Source: Fuerstiella sp. (GTDB lineage Bacteria > Planctomycetota > Planctomycetia > Planctomycetales > Planctomycetaceae). From it: a stretch of DNA of 64,000 nucleotides. The DNA lies in contig JAKVAZ010000019.1 in NCBI GenBank assembly GCA_022447225.1, forward strand, positions 1-64,000, written 5' to 3'. The notes below the pieces were generated by a model. The model was not told the DNA's origin and made no database searches. It saw only the letters and a list, made by a program, of their open reading frames with translations. Made by a program: the position numbers and the translations under genes. This document shows positions 53,585 to 64,000 of the stretch, piece by piece (the first letter of the stretch is position 1; each line of letters starts with the position of its first letter).

Positions 53585-55036
53585 CTAAGATGAAAAGAAT
53601 GCGACCAGTGTCTGGACGCCGAGTGCTGTCATTGTAATGCCTGCAATGAGTGTGACCGCCCACAGGCCTCGATTCATTCTCAGACGCGGCGGCAATCTCG
53701 TTGCGTCGGTCCACAGCATTGCGAGACACCACAATCCGCACAATGTTGCTCCACCAATCACCGCACCAAACGTCATTTTACCCAGAACGTTTCCGGCGAT
53801 CCCTTCGGGCAGCCAGATCATAATGATCCCGCCTCCGAAACAAAATGCCACTGTTCCGTTTTGCCATGCACGAAGATGTCCGGACTGCGTCCACCTGGGC
53901 AGCAGTGCCCGCGCACTTTCCACAACGGTGTAGCGATAAATTTCAAATGCACCGTATAAGGTTCCGATGAAAGCCATAAACACGCCGGCTCTGTACAGCC
54001 AGCGAAGCTGCGGATGTACCTGAGTGAGAAATGACTCCTGCTGACTCAACAGCATGTTATCGTCGGGAATTTTGTGAGCAGAATGCAGCAGCAGGGCTCC
54101 CAGTGCGGCGAAAAGCAGTGTGACCAGAACCACGCTGGTAAACGACACCACGGTGTCCAGCAGTGCAGCCCGTGTCCATGTTCTTGCCCAGGTGACCTGC
54201 TGATCGCTGAGAGTCTCCAGCGTTTCGCGGGGAGCTCCTTCGGTGCCGGAGAGTCCCCATTTTTTTTTGCGGAGCATCCCCACGTATCCCAGGTAGTCGT
54301 ATGTGCCGCCGCCAACGGCACCCAGATACAGTGCCACTTCCAGCCACGGGCTGCGGCCACGAAATCCCTCATACGTTTTTTCAACCCAGGGTTGGTAATC
54401 CGGAACGGACGGAACAAACAATCCCGAGAGGAATCCCGTAGACGTTGGCTGGCACATCATGATGGAAATCACAGAACTGAGCACGATGAGACCGATGACA
54501 AATGCTGATACGCGTTCCAGCGTTTGCTGACTGGAACTCAGTGCCAGTGCAAGGCATGTTGTGAGAACGGCCGTGGCCCAAAAATTATTCCAGAACTCGA
54601 ATCCGCCGAACGGACCAACCGCAGTGTCATTGCTGGAAATACCGGTGAGTTCCCTCACATAACCGCCGAGGATCTCTGAGATTGCCGAAAACGCCAGTGG
54701 CATTACCATGACGGTGGGCAAAGCGATCAGCAGTGGAAACCATGACGGTGGACCAGGCAGTGATTTCCAGCTGACCATGGGATGTTCACCCGTCAGGGTA
54801 ATGTGACGTGCTGCCACATAGACCTGCACTCCCTTGAACACTCCGGCAAGCAGAAAACACCACAACAACTGGTATCCAAACACGGCGCCACTGCGTGAAG
54901 CCACCACCAGTTCACCGCTGCCGATTGTGACAGACGCAATAATCAATCCGGGGCCGACAAATGTGAGAACGCTCCGGAAGTTAAGCGAACTGAGACGCTG
55001 TGGTGGTTCAGGGAATAAGTCATTCGTTTGTGTCAA
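53585..55036 (-). CDS. Nramp-family transporter lacking the canonical metal-site motifs
   Basis: 483 residues with about 11 helices. Opening LTFVGPGLIIASVTIGSGELVVASRSGA aligns with Nramp helix 1, but the DPGN metal-binding motif is replaced by GSGE. In helix 6, the MPH motif is replaced by a GGGTYDY-like segment. Family assignment rests on overall pattern and the GPG opening. Typical of Nramp-related branches whose substrate differs; Mn/Fe transport cannot be assumed. Divergent from the M81 gene with a 100-base shared upstream region. Confidence 0.8.
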   Translation of the reverse strand: MTQTNDLFPEPPQRLSSLNFRSVLTFVGPGLIIASVTIGSGELVVASRSGAVFGYQLLWCFLLAGVFKGVQVYVAARHITLTGEHPMVSWKSLPGPPSWFPLLIALPTVMVMPLAFSAISEILGGYVRELTGISSNDTAVGPFGGFEFWNNFWATAVLTTCLALALSSSQQTLERVSAFVIGLIVLSSVISIMMCQPTSTGFLSGLFVPSVPDYQPWVEKTYEGFRGRSPWLEVALYLGAVGGGTYDYLGYVGMLRKKKWGLSGTEGAPRETLETLSDQQVTWARTWTRAALLDTVVSFTSVVLVTLLFAALGALLLHSAHKIPDDNMLLSQQESFLTQVHPQLRWLYRAGVFMAFIGTLYGAFEIYRYTVVESARALLPRWTQSGHLRAWQNGTVAFCFGGGIIMIWLPEGIAGNVLGKMTFGAVIGGATLCGLWCLAMLWTDATRLPPRLRMNRGLWAVTLIAGITMTALGVQTLVAFFSS

Positions 55037-55136
55037 GATGCCGCCCCAACGGAATACGCCTTCGATTTCATCCTGTATGATAACCCGTGCCGGTCCGGTT
55101 TTCGTCCGGTTTGAGCAAAGAGAAGTCGATTGGTCA

Positions 55137-56642
55137 ATGATGAATACAACTCAACGTATCGCTATAGGCGGGATTCTGACGGAGTGCAATCATCTGGGCG
55201 GTCTGCCTATCGAAATAGCCGTCTACGAAGATTCCGGGCTGTATCGTGATGATGAAGTTCTGCAGCTGACGTCCAGTGTCGTGGGTGGCATGCTGGCTGA
55301 ACTTTCCGAAGCAGGTGCTGAACCCGTGCCTCTGATTTATGCGTCGGCATGTGCCGCCGGTCCAATCACTCAGGAGTGCTACAGACAGTTGCGCAGCGAA
55401 TGGCTCGAGCGGCTCCGTGCCTCACTGCCTGTCGACGGAGTATTGCTGCCACTCCACGGGGCCGCCCTGGCCGAAGGTGTGGATGATCCGGAGGGCGACA
55501 TGATTGAGGCAGCCCGCCGGCTTGTTGGTCCCGATGTCCCCATCGTGGTTACCCTGGATCTGCACGCTCATGTGACCCAGCAAATGGTCCGTCATGCGGA
55601 CGGGTTGCTGGCCTGGGAAACCTATCCTCATCATGACCAGTTTTCCACGGGACAGCGGGGCGTGCGTCTGCTGCTGGACATACTTGCCGGTCGTTGCCGT
55701 CCGACAATGGCGATGGCGAAGGTACCTGTCCTCACCAGTGCCATTCACGGTTCGACACTGGATGACGACCCGTTTGCGGATCTGATGCGATTCACAAAGT
55801 CACTGGAGCAGCGTGACCGTGTGCTTTCCACCAGCCTGTTCCTGCTGCATGCGTATATGGATTGTGAAAATATGGGCAGTGGCGGCTTGGTTATTACTGA
55901 CGATGACCCGAAACTGGCAGAGAGTCTGGCGACAGAGATTGCACAGCGATACTGGGAACGACGACATGATCTGGAACCGAAAACTGTGTCGCCCAGGGAT
56001 GCGATCGAAGCTGGAATGAGTATTGATGGTGGCCCGGTGATTCTTGTTGAAACGGCAGATTGTTGTGGAGGCGGAGCAGCCGGAGACAGCATTGCAGCAT
56101 TGTCAGCGCTGGTGGACAGCGGCACGGATGAATTTTCCATTGTGCCGCTTGTTGATCCGGATGCGGCGGCGGTGTGCCACGCGTCAGGAACAGGGGCGAA
56201 AATCTCCCTGGAACTCGGCCACAAGCTCGATCCTCGCTGGGGAAATTCGCGGAAATTCGATGGTGAAATAGAAAGTCTGCTTGACGGCAGGTTTGTTTAC
56301 ACGGGAGGTCAGTGGGAAGGACATCAGGAACACATGGGGCCAACTGCTGTCTTTCGAATCGGAGCCGTTCGGGTTCTTGTGATGAGCCGGGCAACTTACG
56401 ACTGGGCCGATGAGCAGTTTCGCGCCGCAGATCTCAACCCGGTCGATGCAAAATTTATTGTGGTAAAGAATCCCATGAATTACCGGGTGGCCTATGGGGA
56501 CGTTGCCAGGCAGGTGATCATACTGGACACGCCTGGTCCAACTCCTCCCACCCTGAAACACGTCCGATACAAAAAAATCAATGGACCTTATTTCCCTGCC
56601 AATGCTGAAATTCCAGGACTTCAGCCGACACTTCTGCAGTGA
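55137..56642 (+). CDS. M81 family metallopeptidase (MlrC-like)
   Basis: 501 residues from ATG 55137 (a second ATG at 55140). Start of the family: IAIGGILTECNHLGG. VPLIYASACAAGPIT, VDGVLLPLHGAALAEGVDDPEGD, VVTLDLHAHVT (metal histidines), and VILVETADCCGGGAAGDS follow; the C-terminal MlrC domain includes MGPTAVFRIGAVRVLVMS and FIVVKNPMNYRVAY. Named for the microcystin-degrading MlrC, but the family is large and most members act on unknown substrates. The frame stays open upstream to 54834 but overlaps the Nramp gene. Confidence 0.92.
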   Translation: MMNTTQRIAIGGILTECNHLGGLPIEIAVYEDSGLYRDDEVLQLTSSVVGGMLAELSEAGAEPVPLIYASACAAGPITQECYRQLRSEWLERLRASLPVDGVLLPLHGAALAEGVDDPEGDMIEAARRLVGPDVPIVVTLDLHAHVTQQMVRHADGLLAWETYPHHDQFSTGQRGVRLLLDILAGRCRPTMAMAKVPVLTSAIHGSTLDDDPFADLMRFTKSLEQRDRVLSTSLFLLHAYMDCENMGSGGLVITDDDPKLAESLATEIAQRYWERRHDLEPKTVSPRDAIEAGMSIDGGPVILVETADCCGGGAAGDSIAALSALVDSGTDEFSIVPLVDPDAAAVCHASGTGAKISLELGHKLDPRWGNSRKFDGEIESLLDGRFVYTGGQWEGHQEHMGPTAVFRIGAVRVLVMSRATYDWADEQFRAADLNPVDAKFIVVKNPMNYRVAYGDVARQVIILDTPGPTPPTLKHVRYKKINGPYFPANAEIPGLQPTLLQ

Positions 56643-56871: not shown

Positions 56872-59436
56872 TCACGGGCGGATACGAAGATCGTAAACGA
56901 ACAGGTGCTCGTGCTCTCGCAGATACAGTCGTTTTCCGGCAATGGCCGGGTGAGCCCATCGTTCCCGGCCTGCCCCGGGGATTTGAAACGATCCTTTGAG
57001 TCTGTAACCGTCCCGTGACGCATCGATCAGTGCCATGACACCGTCCTGGTAACGGAAATAAAGGTGTCCATCCGCATAAATGACGGACGCTGACCCGGTT
57101 CCCGGACCACGAGTCTTCCAAAGAATTTCTCCTGTTGCGACGTCGATACAGGTTGGCAGTCCGTTGTTGTTGCCGTGGCCACCAAAGATCGAGTCGCCAA
57201 CAAGCACGAATCCACCGTGCTGATTTTGAAACCTGCCGGCAGCAAGCGAATATTGTTCGTTCACGTCAATTCCGCCAGTCGTGTTTGGCACCAGTCGGAT
57301 GAGCGCACTTCCGGTGCCGGATCCGATTGAACTGAACACAAGATCTTCCCGTACCACCGGCGTCGAGATGGTGAAACCGTCGAGTCCGTCATAACCGCAG
57401 AGAAATGTTCCGTCTGTTGCGTCGATGACTGCCACACCGCGGCCGATGGTAACGATATAGATTCGCCTGCCGGCAATCTCAGTGACCAGAGGTGAGGCGA
57501 AGCACGGTTCGTCGCGAGTGGAAGTACCGAAGTCAGGCAGAGGTTGTTCCCAGATCAGGTTCCCGCTTTGCATGTCCAGGGCGACGATGCCTGTTTGCTG
57601 ACCACCGGGTGTGCAGATCAGTCGTCCCCGATCAACCAGCGGTGTTTCCGCGAATCCCCGTCCCTGCGGCGGCCTGCCGCCGAAATCGTCGACGTAATGG
57701 CGACTCCACACCTGATCGCCGGTTGTCGCGTCCAGACACCGGAGTGCGCCGTCAGGATCCAGCGCGAAGACGAGTCCGGAATCGACGATAGGGGTCGACA
57801 TCGCGTTCCTGTCGGTCCTGCCGACGGAGCGTTTCCAGAGTAAACTTCCGTCGCTGACCGCCAGAGCAATGACAAAGACCTCGGACGGTTGGTCCTCGCT
57901 TTGAACAGTCGCTCTACCAATCGTATAAATTGCTCCATCGGCAACGGCGACCGATGCCCAGCCTTTCCCGACTGTTGAGACGCTCCACGCCAGCGGCGGT
58001 CCATCGGTGCTCCATGAAGAGAGTAGTCCGGTCTCGTTTGATTGACCGTTTCGATTGGGACCACGCCATCCGGGCCAGGATCCGTCGCGTTCGATCGGTG
58101 TCGTATTACCGCGATTTACCACGGCCGGCGAGCTTAGATCTTCACCCTCCCGACGCAGTGTCCGAAGTTTTGGCAGTGCCGTTTTCAGTTCCCGGACGCC
58201 GGCGGCGGTGACTCGAGCCCCCACGAGGCTCAGAGACTCGAGTGTTTGGAGACGAGAGATCGTCTTCAGACCTTCGTCCGTGACAACGGGCTTACTGAAG
58301 CCCGCGTGCGAATCGATCGAAAGCTTTTCCAGCTGTGGGAGGTTGGCGAGGTGGACGAGCCCTGGATCGGTCACTTTTGTGAGGCTGAGATCGAGCTCTC
58401 TCAGTTCGACGAGCGCAGCGAGGTGAACGAGTGCGTCGTCGTCGATTGCTGTTGCGAACAGATCGAGGACCTCCAGTCGTTTGAGCGGAGCAATGTTTCG
58501 TACGATTTTTCCGGTGAAGCGATTGCGGAATCCTGTCTGGCGGAGACTTAACGCCTGCAGCCCGCTTAGCTTCGTTAGATGGACAAGTCCGTCACCGGTC
58601 AGTGACCCACAGAATTCCACGCTGAGCGCGGTCAGTTGGTCCAAAGAGGAGATTGTGGCGAGACCCTTGTTGTCCAGTTCTGTGTTGGACACGTCCAGAA
58701 GCCGGAGATTGCGAAGACCCCGCAGGTGGTCCAGTCCGGATCCGGTGACTGGTGTACCTCCCAGAGCGACAGCGCGAAGCTCCCTGAGGGGCGTGAGGGC
58801 AGCGAGTCCGTCATCTGAAATCTGAGCGTCGGTGATATGCAGTTCCTGCAGCGAGCGTAGTTTGCCGACGGTGCTGAGCCATGTATCCGTGATCTGTCGG
58901 CCCTTGAGAATCAGTGTTTGCAGGTTATTGAGTTTTTCCAGGTGCGCAAGTCCGGCTGCTGAGACTTGGGTGAAACTGAGGTCAAGCGTGCGCAGATACT
59001 GAAGTCGGCTGACATGTTCCAGTGCCGCATCGTCGATGGTGGTTCCCGACAGGTCGAGAAACTCCAGTTCCGGAATCTGATGCAGGGATTCCAATGCTGC
59101 AGAGTCAATTGGTGTGTTTGTGAGGACGAGGCCCCGGAGCCGGGGAACCTCGTTAAAACTGGTCCGGATTCCTACAGTAAAATGCCCGTTCCGCCCGACA
59201 TGATGTGCGTCAAGAATGATGACTTGACCATCTCCGGGCCCCTGCATCAGTTGCTCAGCTGCGATTCGTGAGAGACTGCGCCACCGGGCGGTTACCTGTT
59301 CCGTCCGCATGTCAGTGAACTTTGCCATGCGGACACCATCCGGGCCGCGACTTTCTTCAGAAGCATAAGTGCAGTCCGACAAGGTGACTACAAACATGAT
59401 GACGAACAGTGCGTATGAACCAGCTCGCTGATTCAT
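56872..59436 (-). CDS. Exported fusion of leucine-rich repeats and PQQ-type beta-propeller
   Basis: 854 residues from ATG 59436. Signal peptide MNQRAGSYALFVIMFVVTLS. About 13 leucine-rich repeats of about 24 residues (for example LEFLDLSGTTIDDAALEHVS) fill about 95-440, with the planctomycete T-x-I/V-x-D/T spacing. Then WPGWRGPNRNGQS opens a PQQ-binding-like propeller (VGKGWASVAVADGAIYTIGR; DPDGALRCLDATTGDQVWSR; GDSIFGGHGNNNGLP). Probably a periplasmic binding or scaffold protein. It follows the C45 gene by 60 bases in the same direction and may be the last gene of that operon. Confidence 0.93.
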   Translation of the reverse strand: MNQRAGSYALFVIMFVVTLSDCTYASEESRGPDGVRMAKFTDMRTEQVTARWRSLSRIAAEQLMQGPGDGQVIILDAHHVGRNGHFTVGIRTSFNEVPRLRGLVLTNTPIDSAALESLHQIPELEFLDLSGTTIDDAALEHVSRLQYLRTLDLSFTQVSAAGLAHLEKLNNLQTLILKGRQITDTWLSTVGKLRSLQELHITDAQISDDGLAALTPLRELRAVALGGTPVTGSGLDHLRGLRNLRLLDVSNTELDNKGLATISSLDQLTALSVEFCGSLTGDGLVHLTKLSGLQALSLRQTGFRNRFTGKIVRNIAPLKRLEVLDLFATAIDDDALVHLAALVELRELDLSLTKVTDPGLVHLANLPQLEKLSIDSHAGFSKPVVTDEGLKTISRLQTLESLSLVGARVTAAGVRELKTALPKLRTLRREGEDLSSPAVVNRGNTTPIERDGSWPGWRGPNRNGQSNETGLLSSWSTDGPPLAWSVSTVGKGWASVAVADGAIYTIGRATVQSEDQPSEVFVIALAVSDGSLLWKRSVGRTDRNAMSTPIVDSGLVFALDPDGALRCLDATTGDQVWSRHYVDDFGGRPPQGRGFAETPLVDRGRLICTPGGQQTGIVALDMQSGNLIWEQPLPDFGTSTRDEPCFASPLVTEIAGRRIYIVTIGRGVAVIDATDGTFLCGYDGLDGFTISTPVVREDLVFSSIGSGTGSALIRLVPNTTGGIDVNEQYSLAAGRFQNQHGGFVLVGDSIFGGHGNNNGLPTCIDVATGEILWKTRGPGTGSASVIYADGHLYFRYQDGVMALIDASRDGYRLKGSFQIPGAGRERWAHPAIAGKRLYLREHEHLFVYDLRIRP

Positions 59437-59496
59437 ATTTGTTAAGTCAGAAGTCAACTGCACGAGATCTCCCTGTTTGAATTCCGCGAGCTGAGC

Positions 59497-60558
59497 TCAG
59501 TCTTCCGAAAGTCGAAAGCTCTGATAGGGTGTTTCCGATGCCGGTCCGTCACTGGCCCACATCGTACGTGATGTCAGATCGAGCACGATTGAGGCGAGTG
59601 TCTGAATCCGTGTAGGCGAATCCGGCTGGGAAAGGTCCACAAGCTGACAAATTGAATGTGTTGACGAGCTGCGGTCGGCAAGCCACTCCTGGACCAGTTC
59701 CGGCGTGACGGCATTCGGGTTCTTTGTTAGCTCAGTCCAGCGCTCACCGCGCACCAGACTGTTTTCGAACTCAGTGGGTTCGTCGACTTCGCGGCAGTGG
59801 TTGGTGTGCCAGTAGACTTCGTTGTGAGCCAGGTCACGGCGTGCGACCTTATGCGGGGCATATTCAAAATTAGCGGCGTCTCCTGATGAGTCAGCAAGGA
59901 GACAATTGACGGTTGCTCGTGGAGCGAAGTTTTCCAAAACCTGACAGGCTGCAGAAAGCGTCTGTGCCTGCAGAGCGACTCGTCCCAAAGCAACGAACAA
60001 CTGGTCTCCCACGCTGGTCTTTTCCTCGCAATTCAATCCGGCGGCCACCACTCCGATTCCGTGTTCGTTAAAACCATACTTACCCGGTTGTCCGCATTCC
60101 GTAATCATAATGTGGTCGGGGAGATCGTCGCAGTGTGCTTTGACGATTGCCCGGAAGTCCATGACCTCGGGGCGCCAGTCCCAGCTTTGCCCAAGCAAAC
60201 AGTGACCGGTTGCTGAATGTTCGGGGCCCACGTAAACATTGGAGCATTCTCCCAGCGCGTACTCTTCAAACGTGATTTCGTAACGGGCTGAGATCGAAAA
60301 AATATCCTCGAGTGTTTGTCCGGAACCCGCGGCAATGCCTTCATATTCTGTGATCAGCTCTTTACTGAGCCGCGATGTTGGCTCGATGAACAGGGCGGAC
60401 CGGCGTCGAACCTCTGTGCGATCAAAACCGAGCTGCTTCCGAAAAAAAGAACCGTAAAATTCAATCGCGCGTTCGATCGGCTTTCTCAGCGTGCGGCCGT
60501 ACTGTTCGCCACGCTCTCTGCTTGTGCCTCGCAGTTCAACGACGTGAAACGGTGCCAT
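59497..60558 (-). CDS. C45 family autoproteolytic acyltransferase/hydrolase
   Basis: 353 residues. Ntn-hydrolase related to acyl-CoA:6-aminopenicillanate acyltransferase. N-terminal FHVVELRGTSRERGEQYG; the autocatalytic nucleophile Cys105 in ALGECSNVYVG, which becomes the new N-terminus after self-cleavage; GQSWDWRPE, TECGQPGKYGFNEHGIGVVAAGLN, and SGDAANFEYAPHKVARRD follow. Acts on an amide-bound acyl group. Twelve bases downstream of the methylaspartate ammonia-lyase gene: same operon. Confidence 0.9.
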   Translation of the reverse strand: MAPFHVVELRGTSRERGEQYGRTLRKPIERAIEFYGSFFRKQLGFDRTEVRRRSALFIEPTSRLSKELITEYEGIAAGSGQTLEDIFSISARYEITFEEYALGECSNVYVGPEHSATGHCLLGQSWDWRPEVMDFRAIVKAHCDDLPDHIMITECGQPGKYGFNEHGIGVVAAGLNCEEKTSVGDQLFVALGRVALQAQTLSAACQVLENFAPRATVNCLLADSSGDAANFEYAPHKVARRDLAHNEVYWHTNHCREVDEPTEFENSLVRGERWTELTKNPNAVTPELVQEWLADRSSSTHSICQLVDLSQPDSPTRIQTLASIVLDLTSRTMWASDGPASETPYQSFRLSED

Positions 60559-60570
60559 GTTGTTACCTGT

Positions 60571-61806
60571 TTATGCTTTGCCTGCAGCAATGACCGCCAG
60601 CGTACGTGTCATTTCGTTGTGTACGATCTGCAGGCCTTCGTCGATCCCCATGCCAGGTCGAGCCAGCACCCACGCCGGTTTAACGGCCAGTGCCAGGTGG
60701 GCCATCATGCGTCCCGACTGATCGGTGTCAGTACAGGAGCCACCCAGAATTGGGCGCACGCCTCCGGCCAGACAGTCCAGTATTGCCTGCCCGGCATTTG
60801 TGATGGCTCCAAGATCCGGGCTTTTCACATTGACCATGTCGGTCGCGCCGGCGGCGATGAATGCGCGGATGTCGTCAAGATCATTTGCCCATTCGTCAAC
60901 GATCAGCGGTACCTGGACGCCACGTTTTTTCAGGGCCTCACGCAGTGCGCTGAAGAGTTCGATCTGTGCGTCGCGGCTGCTCATTAAAACGGGCGTTTCA
61001 AGGCACAGGCGGTACGGTCCGGCTGCGTCGTGAAGCGAAGCGATATAGTCAGCCATGCGATCGACCTGCTGTTCAAATGCGACGCCGATCATTCCATAGA
61101 CATCGATGTGAAATTCGGGCAGGTAATCATCGCTGCCATATTTGGCAATGCGTTTCACAATCCAGCTGATGTAGTCATGTAATCGTTCGCCGTTCGCTCC
61201 AAGTACCTCCATGTCGTTGATGAGACCGTGAGGTAACACATCGGCTCTCTTGAGGATCGCTTTGTCGACACCCGTGTCACGTTCTTCACCGCACTGGACG
61301 TTGATGGGAATCATGCGGTCGGAGACAGAGACCCCAAAGTACGCGGCCAGTACTTCTGCCGGAGTCTTTGCTTCGTTGACTGCAGCGGCCTGGACAAGAG
61401 CCTGTGTTGCTCCGTAGAAAGCCGCTGCACGATGAAGTCCTCCGTCGAACGTCTGTGCTTCCAGCTCAGCGCACATCTCCGTGAAAGTTTTGACGGGTCG
61501 GCCCTCGAGATAGTTACAGACATCCTGCACGAACGGAATTTGTTCTTTGACAGAAAATCGTCCGGTACGGCCGCCGGCAGCCGAGTAGGCAACACTCATT
61601 CCGTCACCGACTGTGATTCCACCGTTGTCCAGGATCAGGATGATCGAGAACGCCTCACTGGGCTGGCGGATAGATGTGAAGCCTTGGGCCTGAGGTTGTC
61701 CCTCATAGAAATAGCCGTCCCGCTGAGCGCCCGCGCGGATTTCATCGAGGTCTTCGTTGTAGTGACCTCCCCGAGCCGGAACGACAATAGCTTTGGTGAT
61801 CTGCAT
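60571..61806 (-). CDS. Methylaspartate ammonia-lyase
   Basis: 411 residues. Enolase-superfamily lyase: (2S,3S)-3-methylaspartate to mesaconate plus ammonia. Every key residue of the Citrobacter enzyme has a counterpart three positions or fewer away: His193 (DVLPHGLIN), metal ligands Asp235 (FHIDVYG), Glu270 (LCLETPV), Asp304 (LIVDEWAND) and catalytic Lys328 (NVKSPDLGAI), plus Gln171 in VQCGEER. So activity is expected. Normally follows glutamate mutase in the methylaspartate pathway; no mutase is in this window. Six bases from the amidohydrolase gene. Confidence 0.94.
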   Translation of the reverse strand: MQITKAIVVPARGGHYNEDLDEIRAGAQRDGYFYEGQPQAQGFTSIRQPSEAFSIILILDNGGITVGDGMSVAYSAAGGRTGRFSVKEQIPFVQDVCNYLEGRPVKTFTEMCAELEAQTFDGGLHRAAAFYGATQALVQAAAVNEAKTPAEVLAAYFGVSVSDRMIPINVQCGEERDTGVDKAILKRADVLPHGLINDMEVLGANGERLHDYISWIVKRIAKYGSDDYLPEFHIDVYGMIGVAFEQQVDRMADYIASLHDAAGPYRLCLETPVLMSSRDAQIELFSALREALKKRGVQVPLIVDEWANDLDDIRAFIAAGATDMVNVKSPDLGAITNAGQAILDCLAGGVRPILGGSCTDTDQSGRMMAHLALAVKPAWVLARPGMGIDEGLQIVHNEMTRTLAVIAAGKA

Positions 61807-61812
61807 GGATTC

Positions 61813-63036
61813 TCACTCCGTCGGAAGTTCGTGGACAAGTCGCCCGGACTTGAAGACTTTGGCCGGCTTCCGCAGACGGTTCAGATCGTCAAGGGGATTG
61901 GCATCGAGCAGTGTGAGATCGGCGCGATAACCCTCCCTGACTGCTCCGACTTTCGGGATGTTCAGAAATCGGGCACCGTCGCTTGTTACGGTGCGTAACG
62001 CCTCGGCTGTCGAAAGGCCTGCTTCCGTGTAGGCAATGATTTCGTCAACCAGTGAGTCAAAGTAGGTATCAGTCGCACCACAGTCGGTACCGCCGATAAT
62101 TTTGAGACCCAGCCGATGGAAATGCGCTGTGTTGGTGAGCCGACCTTCCAGCCGTTCGACGGCAGCCACGTCTCCGGAATTGTGTGCCCTGCCCGCTTTT
62201 TGAAAACGTTTGGCTGTCTGGAGTGCACTGAACACCGTTGGACTTGCCACAATTCCGTGGTCTCGAATCCGCAATGTGATTTCTTCGTCGTATCGGTAAC
62301 GTCCAGGCGGTTCGACAAAATTGATATGTTCGATCATGTCCAGATTGGCCTGAATTGCGCGTTCGATACTCTCGGTTGCGTGACAGTGGGCTGTAATCTG
62401 TATTCCGTTGGCGTGTGCAACGTCCGAGGCCTCACGCATCAGTTCCAGAGGCAGATCGGCTTCGTGTGGCACGGTACCGGGGGTCAACCCGCCACCGGAA
62501 GCCATCAGTTTCACAAAACCGGCCCCCTGTTCCAGATGCCATTCGATCAGCTGACGAACTTCTTCCACGGTCGTGACTTCGCCGCCACCCATCCAGTGGC
62601 AGTGACCGCCGGGTCGCATGAGGGCGAAGCCGCAGCTGATAATATGTGGTCCGAGCACATCGCCACTTTCGACCTGACGCTGGAACTCGAACATAAGAGG
62701 CGCCGGTGCTGCCATGTCACGCATTGTGGTGATGCCAGATTCGATGGCGACACGGGCGTTGTGTTTGGCCCATTGAATGCGGATTTCGTCGGAAACCTCC
62801 AGATAGGAAGTGCGCGGAGCATTTCCACAGTCCAGAAAGAAATGGACGTGACAATCGATCAGGCCGGGGCACAGGTAGAGATCAGAAGCATCGATTTCCG
62901 CCAGATTGTTCTCTTGCGGAGATTCGTCCACGGATGCAATCACGCCCTGTTCGACGACGACCGATTGTCGCACGATTGTGCCCTGTTCAACGTCAACGAC
63001 ATTGGCGTTACGGAAGCAGAGACTCTCAGTATTCAT
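61813..63036 (-). CDS. Metal-dependent amidohydrolase
   Basis: 407 residues. Amidohydrolase superfamily: His63 and His65 (LIDCHVHF), carbamylated-lysine candidate Lys176 (FVKLMASGGG), His217 (ITAHCHAT), His237 (MIEHINF) and Asp318 (GGTDCG) all present, so a binuclear site is likely. N-terminal and C-terminal beta-sandwich as in imidazolonepropionase and Xaa-Pro/Xaa-Arg dipeptidase relatives. Substrate is an amide, cyclic amide or dipeptide; not specified. Start overlaps the preceding gene's stop by four bases. Confidence 0.92.
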   Translation of the reverse strand: MNTESLCFRNANVVDVEQGTIVRQSVVVEQGVIASVDESPQENNLAEIDASDLYLCPGLIDCHVHFFLDCGNAPRTSYLEVSDEIRIQWAKHNARVAIESGITTMRDMAAPAPLMFEFQRQVESGDVLGPHIISCGFALMRPGGHCHWMGGGEVTTVEEVRQLIEWHLEQGAGFVKLMASGGGLTPGTVPHEADLPLELMREASDVAHANGIQITAHCHATESIERAIQANLDMIEHINFVEPPGRYRYDEEITLRIRDHGIVASPTVFSALQTAKRFQKAGRAHNSGDVAAVERLEGRLTNTAHFHRLGLKIIGGTDCGATDTYFDSLVDEIIAYTEAGLSTAEALRTVTSDGARFLNIPKVGAVREGYRADLTLLDANPLDDLNRLRKPAKVFKSGRLVHELPTE

Positions 63037-64000
63037 GATTTGCTTTCCGCAGCACTTCCCAGGATTTCGTTCCGAACCTCAGCCGCCCCGGCTACCAGTG
63101 ACTGCATTTTTTGCAGTGCGATGTGACGGGGACAATGATTCAATCCGCAGTCCGGTGTAATGATCAGATTTTCGGCAGACGCATACTGCAGAGCGCCGCG
63201 GATGGCGGTGGCGACATCTTGCGGGGTCTCCACGAAGTACGATTTCACGTCAATGACCCCGAAACCGATCTTTTGATCCGGGCGAAAATGTTGAAGCAGT
63301 TCAATCTGCGAAAACTCACGGTTGGCAAATTCCAGGTTGAACTGATCGCAGTTTGCTTCCAGAATCAACGGGAACAACTGTGCATAGTCGCGACGGTCCC
63401 GCGCGCGGCCCTTAAAGTTGCCGAAGCACAGGTGGAGCCCGACTCTCGCTGCCACTCCTTCGCGAGTACGGTTGAAAAGGTTCACCAGGCGTTTGACGTC
63501 CTCACCGGAAGTGGCATAGCGTGGCTCGTCGATCTGCAAAGACGTTGCCCCGGCCGCCACCAGAGCTTTCATCTCCGCGTTCACAATTTGGGCCATGTCT
63601 TCCAGAAGCTCATCCTCGTTTGCATACCCGTTGATTATCTGTAACGGCAGGGCAAGGGTCATCGGGCCGGGAACGCAGACCTTGACCGGTTCTTGTGTGA
63701 TTGATCGGAGGAACACAAGTTCTTCGACGATACCAAGTCCCTGAGGAGCGGTGACCCTGTCAATTACTTCGTGCAGTGGGTTTTGATCATAGCCTGCCGC
63801 ACCGAAACGCCGCTTCGGCGGGAGCGTACGCAGACCCGTAAAACGACCGTAGAAGTTCTGGATGAAGTCGCGACGGCGCATTTCGCCGTCCGTAAGGACG
63901 TCGAGTCCCGCGGTCTGTTGATCGAGTACCGCCAGTCGCACTGCGTCGTCGAGTGTTTCTCGCAGATCTGTTTCCCCCAGATCTGCGTGGCGTTCCAGCG
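63033..64000 (-). CDS. MetE-type zinc methyltransferase (partial, runs off right edge)
   Basis: About 322 residues visible; the frame continues without stop past 64000. C-terminal barrel of the cobalamin-independent methionine synthase family: DVLTDGEMRRRDF, VPGPMTLAL, LQIDEPRYA, then zinc ligands His and Cys in VGLHLCFGN, Glu in FNLEFANREF, and Cys in ITPDCGLNHCP. All four zinc positions are filled, so thiol methylation is expected. A GTG at 63941 is internal: residues upstream (LERHADLGETDLRETLDDA) fit the family. First visible gene of the operon. Confidence 0.9.
   Translation of the reverse strand, partial: LERHADLGETDLRETLDDAVRLAVLDQQTAGLDVLTDGEMRRRDFIQNFYGRFTGLRTLPPKRRFGAAGYDQNPLHEVIDRVTAPQGLGIVEELVFLRSITQEPVKVCVPGPMTLALPLQIINGYANEDELLEDMAQIVNAEMKALVAAGATSLQIDEPRYATSGEDVKRLVNLFNRTREGVAARVGLHLCFGNFKGRARDRRDYAQLFPLILEANCDQFNLEFANREFSQIELLQHFRPDQKIGFGVIDVKSYFVETPQDVATAIRGALQYASAENLIITPDCGLNHCPRHIALQKMQSLVAGAAEVRNEILGSAAESKS

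Follow-up and report, generated by a model that had tools for sequence, protein, structure and literature searches.

C–N lyase reactions on N-substituted aspartates are known in the methylaspartate ammonia-lyase (MAL) family mainly from engineered enzymes, and the laboratory change Q73A has been linked to the acceptance of other amines. In the known MAL, the amine is bound by Q172 and, by way of water, by Q73; F170, Y356 and L384 line the site of the 3-methyl group, and Q329 is located at the carboxylate/enolate (PMC7241714). With a mutated MAL, fumarate can be converted into N-substituted aspartates (PMC8341948). The roles of the zinc and homocysteine residues have been described for the core methionine synthases (PMC7857596). 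No literature linking these and the other enzyme families treated below was found.

A compact, rarely distributed and catabolic-looking operon of five genes lies at the right-hand end of the 64,000-nucleotide stretch of Fuerstiella sp. DNA that was analysed (the window). According to the ORF list all genes are on the minus strand, head to tail, in the following order:

63033..64000, minus strand: MetE-like protein (core methionine synthase fold), first operon gene; PF01717, 108 bits; runs on for 85 bases past the window end (contig 63033-64085 = L003:1034-2086)
61813..63036, minus strand: amidohydrolase, prolidase/aminoacylase-like; PF01979; nearest solved structures 3be7, 2p9b and 3mtw
60571..61806, minus strand: divergent MAL homologue; TIGR01502, 429.5 bits (cut-off 286); model pLDDT 90.8
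59497..60558, minus strand: C45 autoproteolytic acyl hydrolase/transferase; NF040521, 185.8 bits (cut-off 85)
56872..59463, minus strand: secreted-type protein with LRR and PQQ-propeller (LRR-PQQ), GTG start; Pfam; start set by comparison with genus mate G478

The five proteins were assigned to families with Pfam and NCBIfam profiles, and catalytic residues were located by alignment to solved structures. The four enzyme families named in the initial annotation were confirmed in this way, as was its statement that all four enzymes keep their catalytic or metal residues. The tight arrangement and the first three intergenic distances (-4 for MetE-like/amidohydrolase, 6 for amidohydrolase/MAL and 12 bases for MAL/C45) also stood, while the last gap, given before as about 60 bases from an internal ATG at 59436, is better placed at 33 bases, because that ATG is ACG in G478 and the GTG at 59463 is conserved there together with the preceding ribosome-binding sequence GGGAG. 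The window end does cut the operon, as had been remarked, yet only in its first gene: the contig extends to 70012, and about 560 bases upstream of the MetE-like gene a divergent DUF1501-type gene is found. A search for a transporter or regulator at this 5' end had been proposed; none is present between the MetE-like and DUF1501-type genes, nor in the operon itself. Judging by the contig beyond the window, with the end of the MetE-like gene and its divergent neighbour, the five genes make up the whole operon, and no regulator or transporter is among them. Nothing resembling a terminator was detected between the operon genes, which would be co-transcribed judging from the layout; co-transcription of LRR-PQQ with C45 is plausible. 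A PHROGs search gave no informative match.

The MAL homologue scores well over the curated cut-off of its family. Its Mg2+ ligands D238/E273/D307 and the catalytic K331/H194 are all kept, and positions 194, 238, 240, 273, 307, 331 and 359 are invariant in a set of 93 MALs that includes it. The AlphaFold model superimposes on 1kko with a Z score of 56.6 and an rmsd of 1.6 over 407 residues; confidence is low at residues 74-79, beside A73. The substrate pocket is changed: in place of Q73, F170, Q329 and Y356, which make up the pocket for 3-methylaspartate, the Fuerstiella enzyme has A, N, N and I, residues seen at these positions in no other of the 93 MALs. The usual residues are found in nearly the whole set (Q73 and Y356 in 90 each, F or Y at 170 in 89, Q329 in 83). 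With F170 and Y356 of the methyl pocket altered as well as Q73 and Q329, the amine and carboxylate contacts, the substrate is probably not plain (2S,3S)-3-methylaspartate. The enzyme has no close relative among the 92 other MALs (46% identity or less), and its four pocket changes are not significantly above what its overall divergence would lead one to expect (4 of 7 conserved pocket positions versus 29-32% elsewhere; Fisher p 0.12-0.17).

Ordinary glutamate degradation through 3-methylaspartate would account for the family assignment of the MAL and for nothing else in the data, and is very improbable indeed. No glutamate mutase E (GlmE; PF06368) was found in the genome, which is 97% complete, while the profile was positive in the Haloferax control; the operon contains no AtuA/DUF4387 or CaiB-type mesaconate genes, and the MAL pocket is changed. 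Textbook glutamate fermentation was ruled out on the missing mutase, and the earlier remark that the operon does not form a textbook pathway is supported by the same result. MAL was found in 7 of 392 planctomycete genomes; besides the Fuerstiella copy, five are in GlmE-MAL-AtuA arrangements and one, located at the edge of a contig, is incomplete (L010/L016).

Three of the 93 MALs have an altered Q73, namely those of Fuerstiella, L043 and L027, and all three are without neighbouring glm genes; GlmE was not found in the Fuerstiella or L043 genomes. On a Rhizobium conjugative plasmid (L027:1645-9257), a MAL with Q73V, Q172S, C361A and L384G adjoins a dipeptide-type ABC transporter and a PhnF-like regulator. 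In a Nitrososphaeria (archaeal) genome (L043:7347-10260), a MAL with T73 and H329 is divergent from genes for an MtaA/CmuA-like methyltransferase and a TIGR04076 protein. Opp/Dpp-type transporter genes are near both. These parallels with the Fuerstiella MAL are suggestive only. The three enzymes were joined in a clade in a first tree, and the Fuerstiella sequence moved elsewhere once long branches were left out, so that their grouping is not robust.

Other MALs with no mutase in the genome or in the neighbourhood were also seen. Eight actinobacterial MALs (L039, L041, L058, L060, L064, L072, L080 and L101) carry Q329H, several of them with a CaiB-type gene downstream; no GlmE was found in those genomes, and they apparently constitute a separate mutase-free MAL group. 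Four rhizobial MALs (L030, L031, L162 and L163) occur with a CaiB-type CoA-transferase and a CoA ester lyase, in three of the four loci also with a fumarate hydratase, and have no neighbouring glutamate mutase. Q73 is kept in L030 and L031, the two that were checked; with the mutase missing from the neighbourhood, the 3-methylaspartate used by the rhizobial enzymes may come from another source.

The changed pocket could also be read as a preference for another stereoisomer. In that case the two hydrolases would free a 3-methylaspartate residue from peptides, perhaps one of another configuration, for instance the D-erythro-3-methylaspartate found in cyanobacterial peptides, and the MAL would act on the amino acid so released. 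The MAL is over its family cut-off and the amidohydrolase is closest to arginine-carboxypeptidase/prolidase enzymes, both of which agree with such salvage; in some cyanobacterial peptides, residues of the 3-methylaspartate type adjoin arginine. A gene for an MlrC-type M81 peptidase just downstream of the operon would fit as well, but 118 of 170 family genomes have M81 genes, with up to 8 copies per genome, and this neighbour is therefore native and uninformative. Against this reading, F170 and Y356 of the methyl pocket have been replaced, and the operon has no gene for handling mesaconate. Peptide salvage is thus regarded as unlikely. The M81 gene is divergent from an NRAMP-like transporter gene (window 53585-56642), and the pair was found again in other family genomes (L137, L140). 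Degradation of microcystin-type peptides, a candidate suggested by the MlrC-like neighbour, was weakened by the frequency of M81 in the family.

The operon enzymes have a patchy distribution. MAL is absent from the 169 other family genomes, and for C45 and the amidohydrolase no strong match was obtained in 391 other planctomycetes (1 of 392 at strict cut-offs). Outside the genus, no match to any of the four enzymes exceeded about 46% identity. From this distribution alone the operon appears to have been acquired laterally; the base composition of the region shows nothing foreign or unusual. The conserved co-occurrence of the four families, which had been proposed as a check, did not materialize: a second complete set was found neither in the phylum, the family or plasmids nor, using two peptide patterns, among the matches listed for GTDB contigs, and no second genome was found with MAL, the amidohydrolase or the MetE-like gene beside C45.

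In the genus, only C45 and LRR-PQQ could be confirmed, in G478, in which synteny covers the downstream genes and C45 up to the contig end inside C45 (L127:10148-11028, where identity to the window is ~99-100%); the G478 assembly has no matches to MAL, the amidohydrolase or the MetE-like gene. In the genus mate G344, no strong matches to the region were obtained beyond the PDH genes, and none for MAL or M81. C45 is 98.6% identical to its G478 counterpart over residues 61-353 (dN 0.006, dS 0.050) and is under purifying selection. The neighbouring genes have dS values of 0.19-0.40, with 0.40 for LRR-PQQ against 0.05 for C45. The transition is gradual, identity rising across the 5' end of LRR-PQQ and on into C45. 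The low dS of C45 suggests that this part was exchanged recently or is unusually conserved. LRR-PQQ proteins of this kind are common in planctomycetes, and as this one diverges much faster than C45 between the two species, the role in the pathway initially suggested for it is doubtful.

These data also bear on whether the genes serve one pathway at all. They could be unrelated imports in one transcript with separate salvage roles, the MetE-like protein in methionine salvage and the amidohydrolase and C45 as general deacylases. The lack of a second four-gene set, the very different evolution of LRR-PQQ and C45 and the occurrence of C45 and MetE-like homologues elsewhere with other neighbours are consistent with this. 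The overlap of 4 bases and the gaps of 6 and 12 bases argue against it, as does the fact that MAL, C45 and the amidohydrolase are, at the cut-offs applied, alike in their rarity and absent from the related genomes sampled. Separate roles are considered somewhat unlikely.

The preferred reading, put forward tentatively and at slightly below an even chance, is that the operon was acquired laterally and serves the catabolism of a natural compound with a substituted aspartate in amide linkage. C45 and the amidohydrolase would remove acyl or peptidyl groups. In the MAL homologue, Lys331 would take the C3 proton over Mg2+ and the amine would be expelled to give a fumarate-type acid; the MetE-like protein would move a methyl group released in the pathway onto homocysteine. 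A preference for something other than (2S,3S)-3-methylaspartate would follow from the replacement of the amine-side Gln73 by Ala and the loss of the aromatic methyl pocket. The substrate is likely to belong to the aspartate-type conjugates; the favoured guess within this class is an N-substituted aspartate lacking the 3-methyl group, split into amine and fumarate. As the product would be fumarate, no dedicated mesaconate enzymes would be needed. We infer the shared pathway, the substrate, the order of steps and the methyl donor. As in the initial annotation, a catabolic module of two amide/acyl hydrolases, a C–N lyase and a methyl-transfer enzyme remains the best reading, with the change that, because of the pocket, plain 3-methylaspartate is probably not the substrate. 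It is a bolder and rather improbable proposal that the MAL is a natural C–N lyase for N-substituted aspartates at the core of an undescribed four-enzyme pathway of acyl/peptide stripping, aspartyl C–N cleavage and methyl transfer onto homocysteine. If true, the pocket change by which engineers opened MAL to other amines already has a use in nature, and the operon is a lead to an as yet unknown natural product of the aspartate type and to its breakdown. Where a genome lacks glutamate mutase, proteins annotated as methylaspartate ammonia-lyase may then not make or use 3-methylaspartate.

In comparison with the MALs of C. tetanomorphum (1kcz) and C. amalonaticus (1kko), the Fuerstiella enzyme has the same fold, Mg2+ ligands, Lys331, His194, Q172, C361 and L384 but differs in A73, N170, N329 and I356 and in belonging to a genome without glutamate mutase. 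It shares Ala at position 73 with the engineered MAL Q73A, of which the structure has been solved (3zvh), but occurs naturally and is altered at three more pocket positions. The MetE-like protein keeps the zinc ligands H, C, E and C and the homocysteine-site Ser/Glu/Asp in alignment to its best solved match, 3rpd, as in the core methionine synthases MesA-MesD, from which it differs by an identity of only ~30% and by its location in a catabolic-looking operon; the profile of MesX (PF08908) had no match in the genome, but gave none in the control either. Like the amidohydrolase, it matches Pfam and is below every specific NCBIfam cut-off. The amidohydrolase has the binuclear metal residues HxH/K/H/H/D (alignment to 3be7, 2p9b and 3mtw) and a full-length match in common with prolidase/aminoacylase-type enzymes (3be7, 3mtw, ochratoxinase 4c5y), while it reaches 182 of the 500 bits of the Xaa-Pro dipeptidase equivalog cut-off (NF051886), remains a general PF01979 amidohydrolase, and is ~30% identical to plasmid homologues. 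C45 is over the cut-off of the C45 acyltransferase/hydrolase family with its nucleophile Cys aligned (NF040521, 2x1d), but is only ~31% identical to its nearest plasmid homologue, whose neighbours differ.
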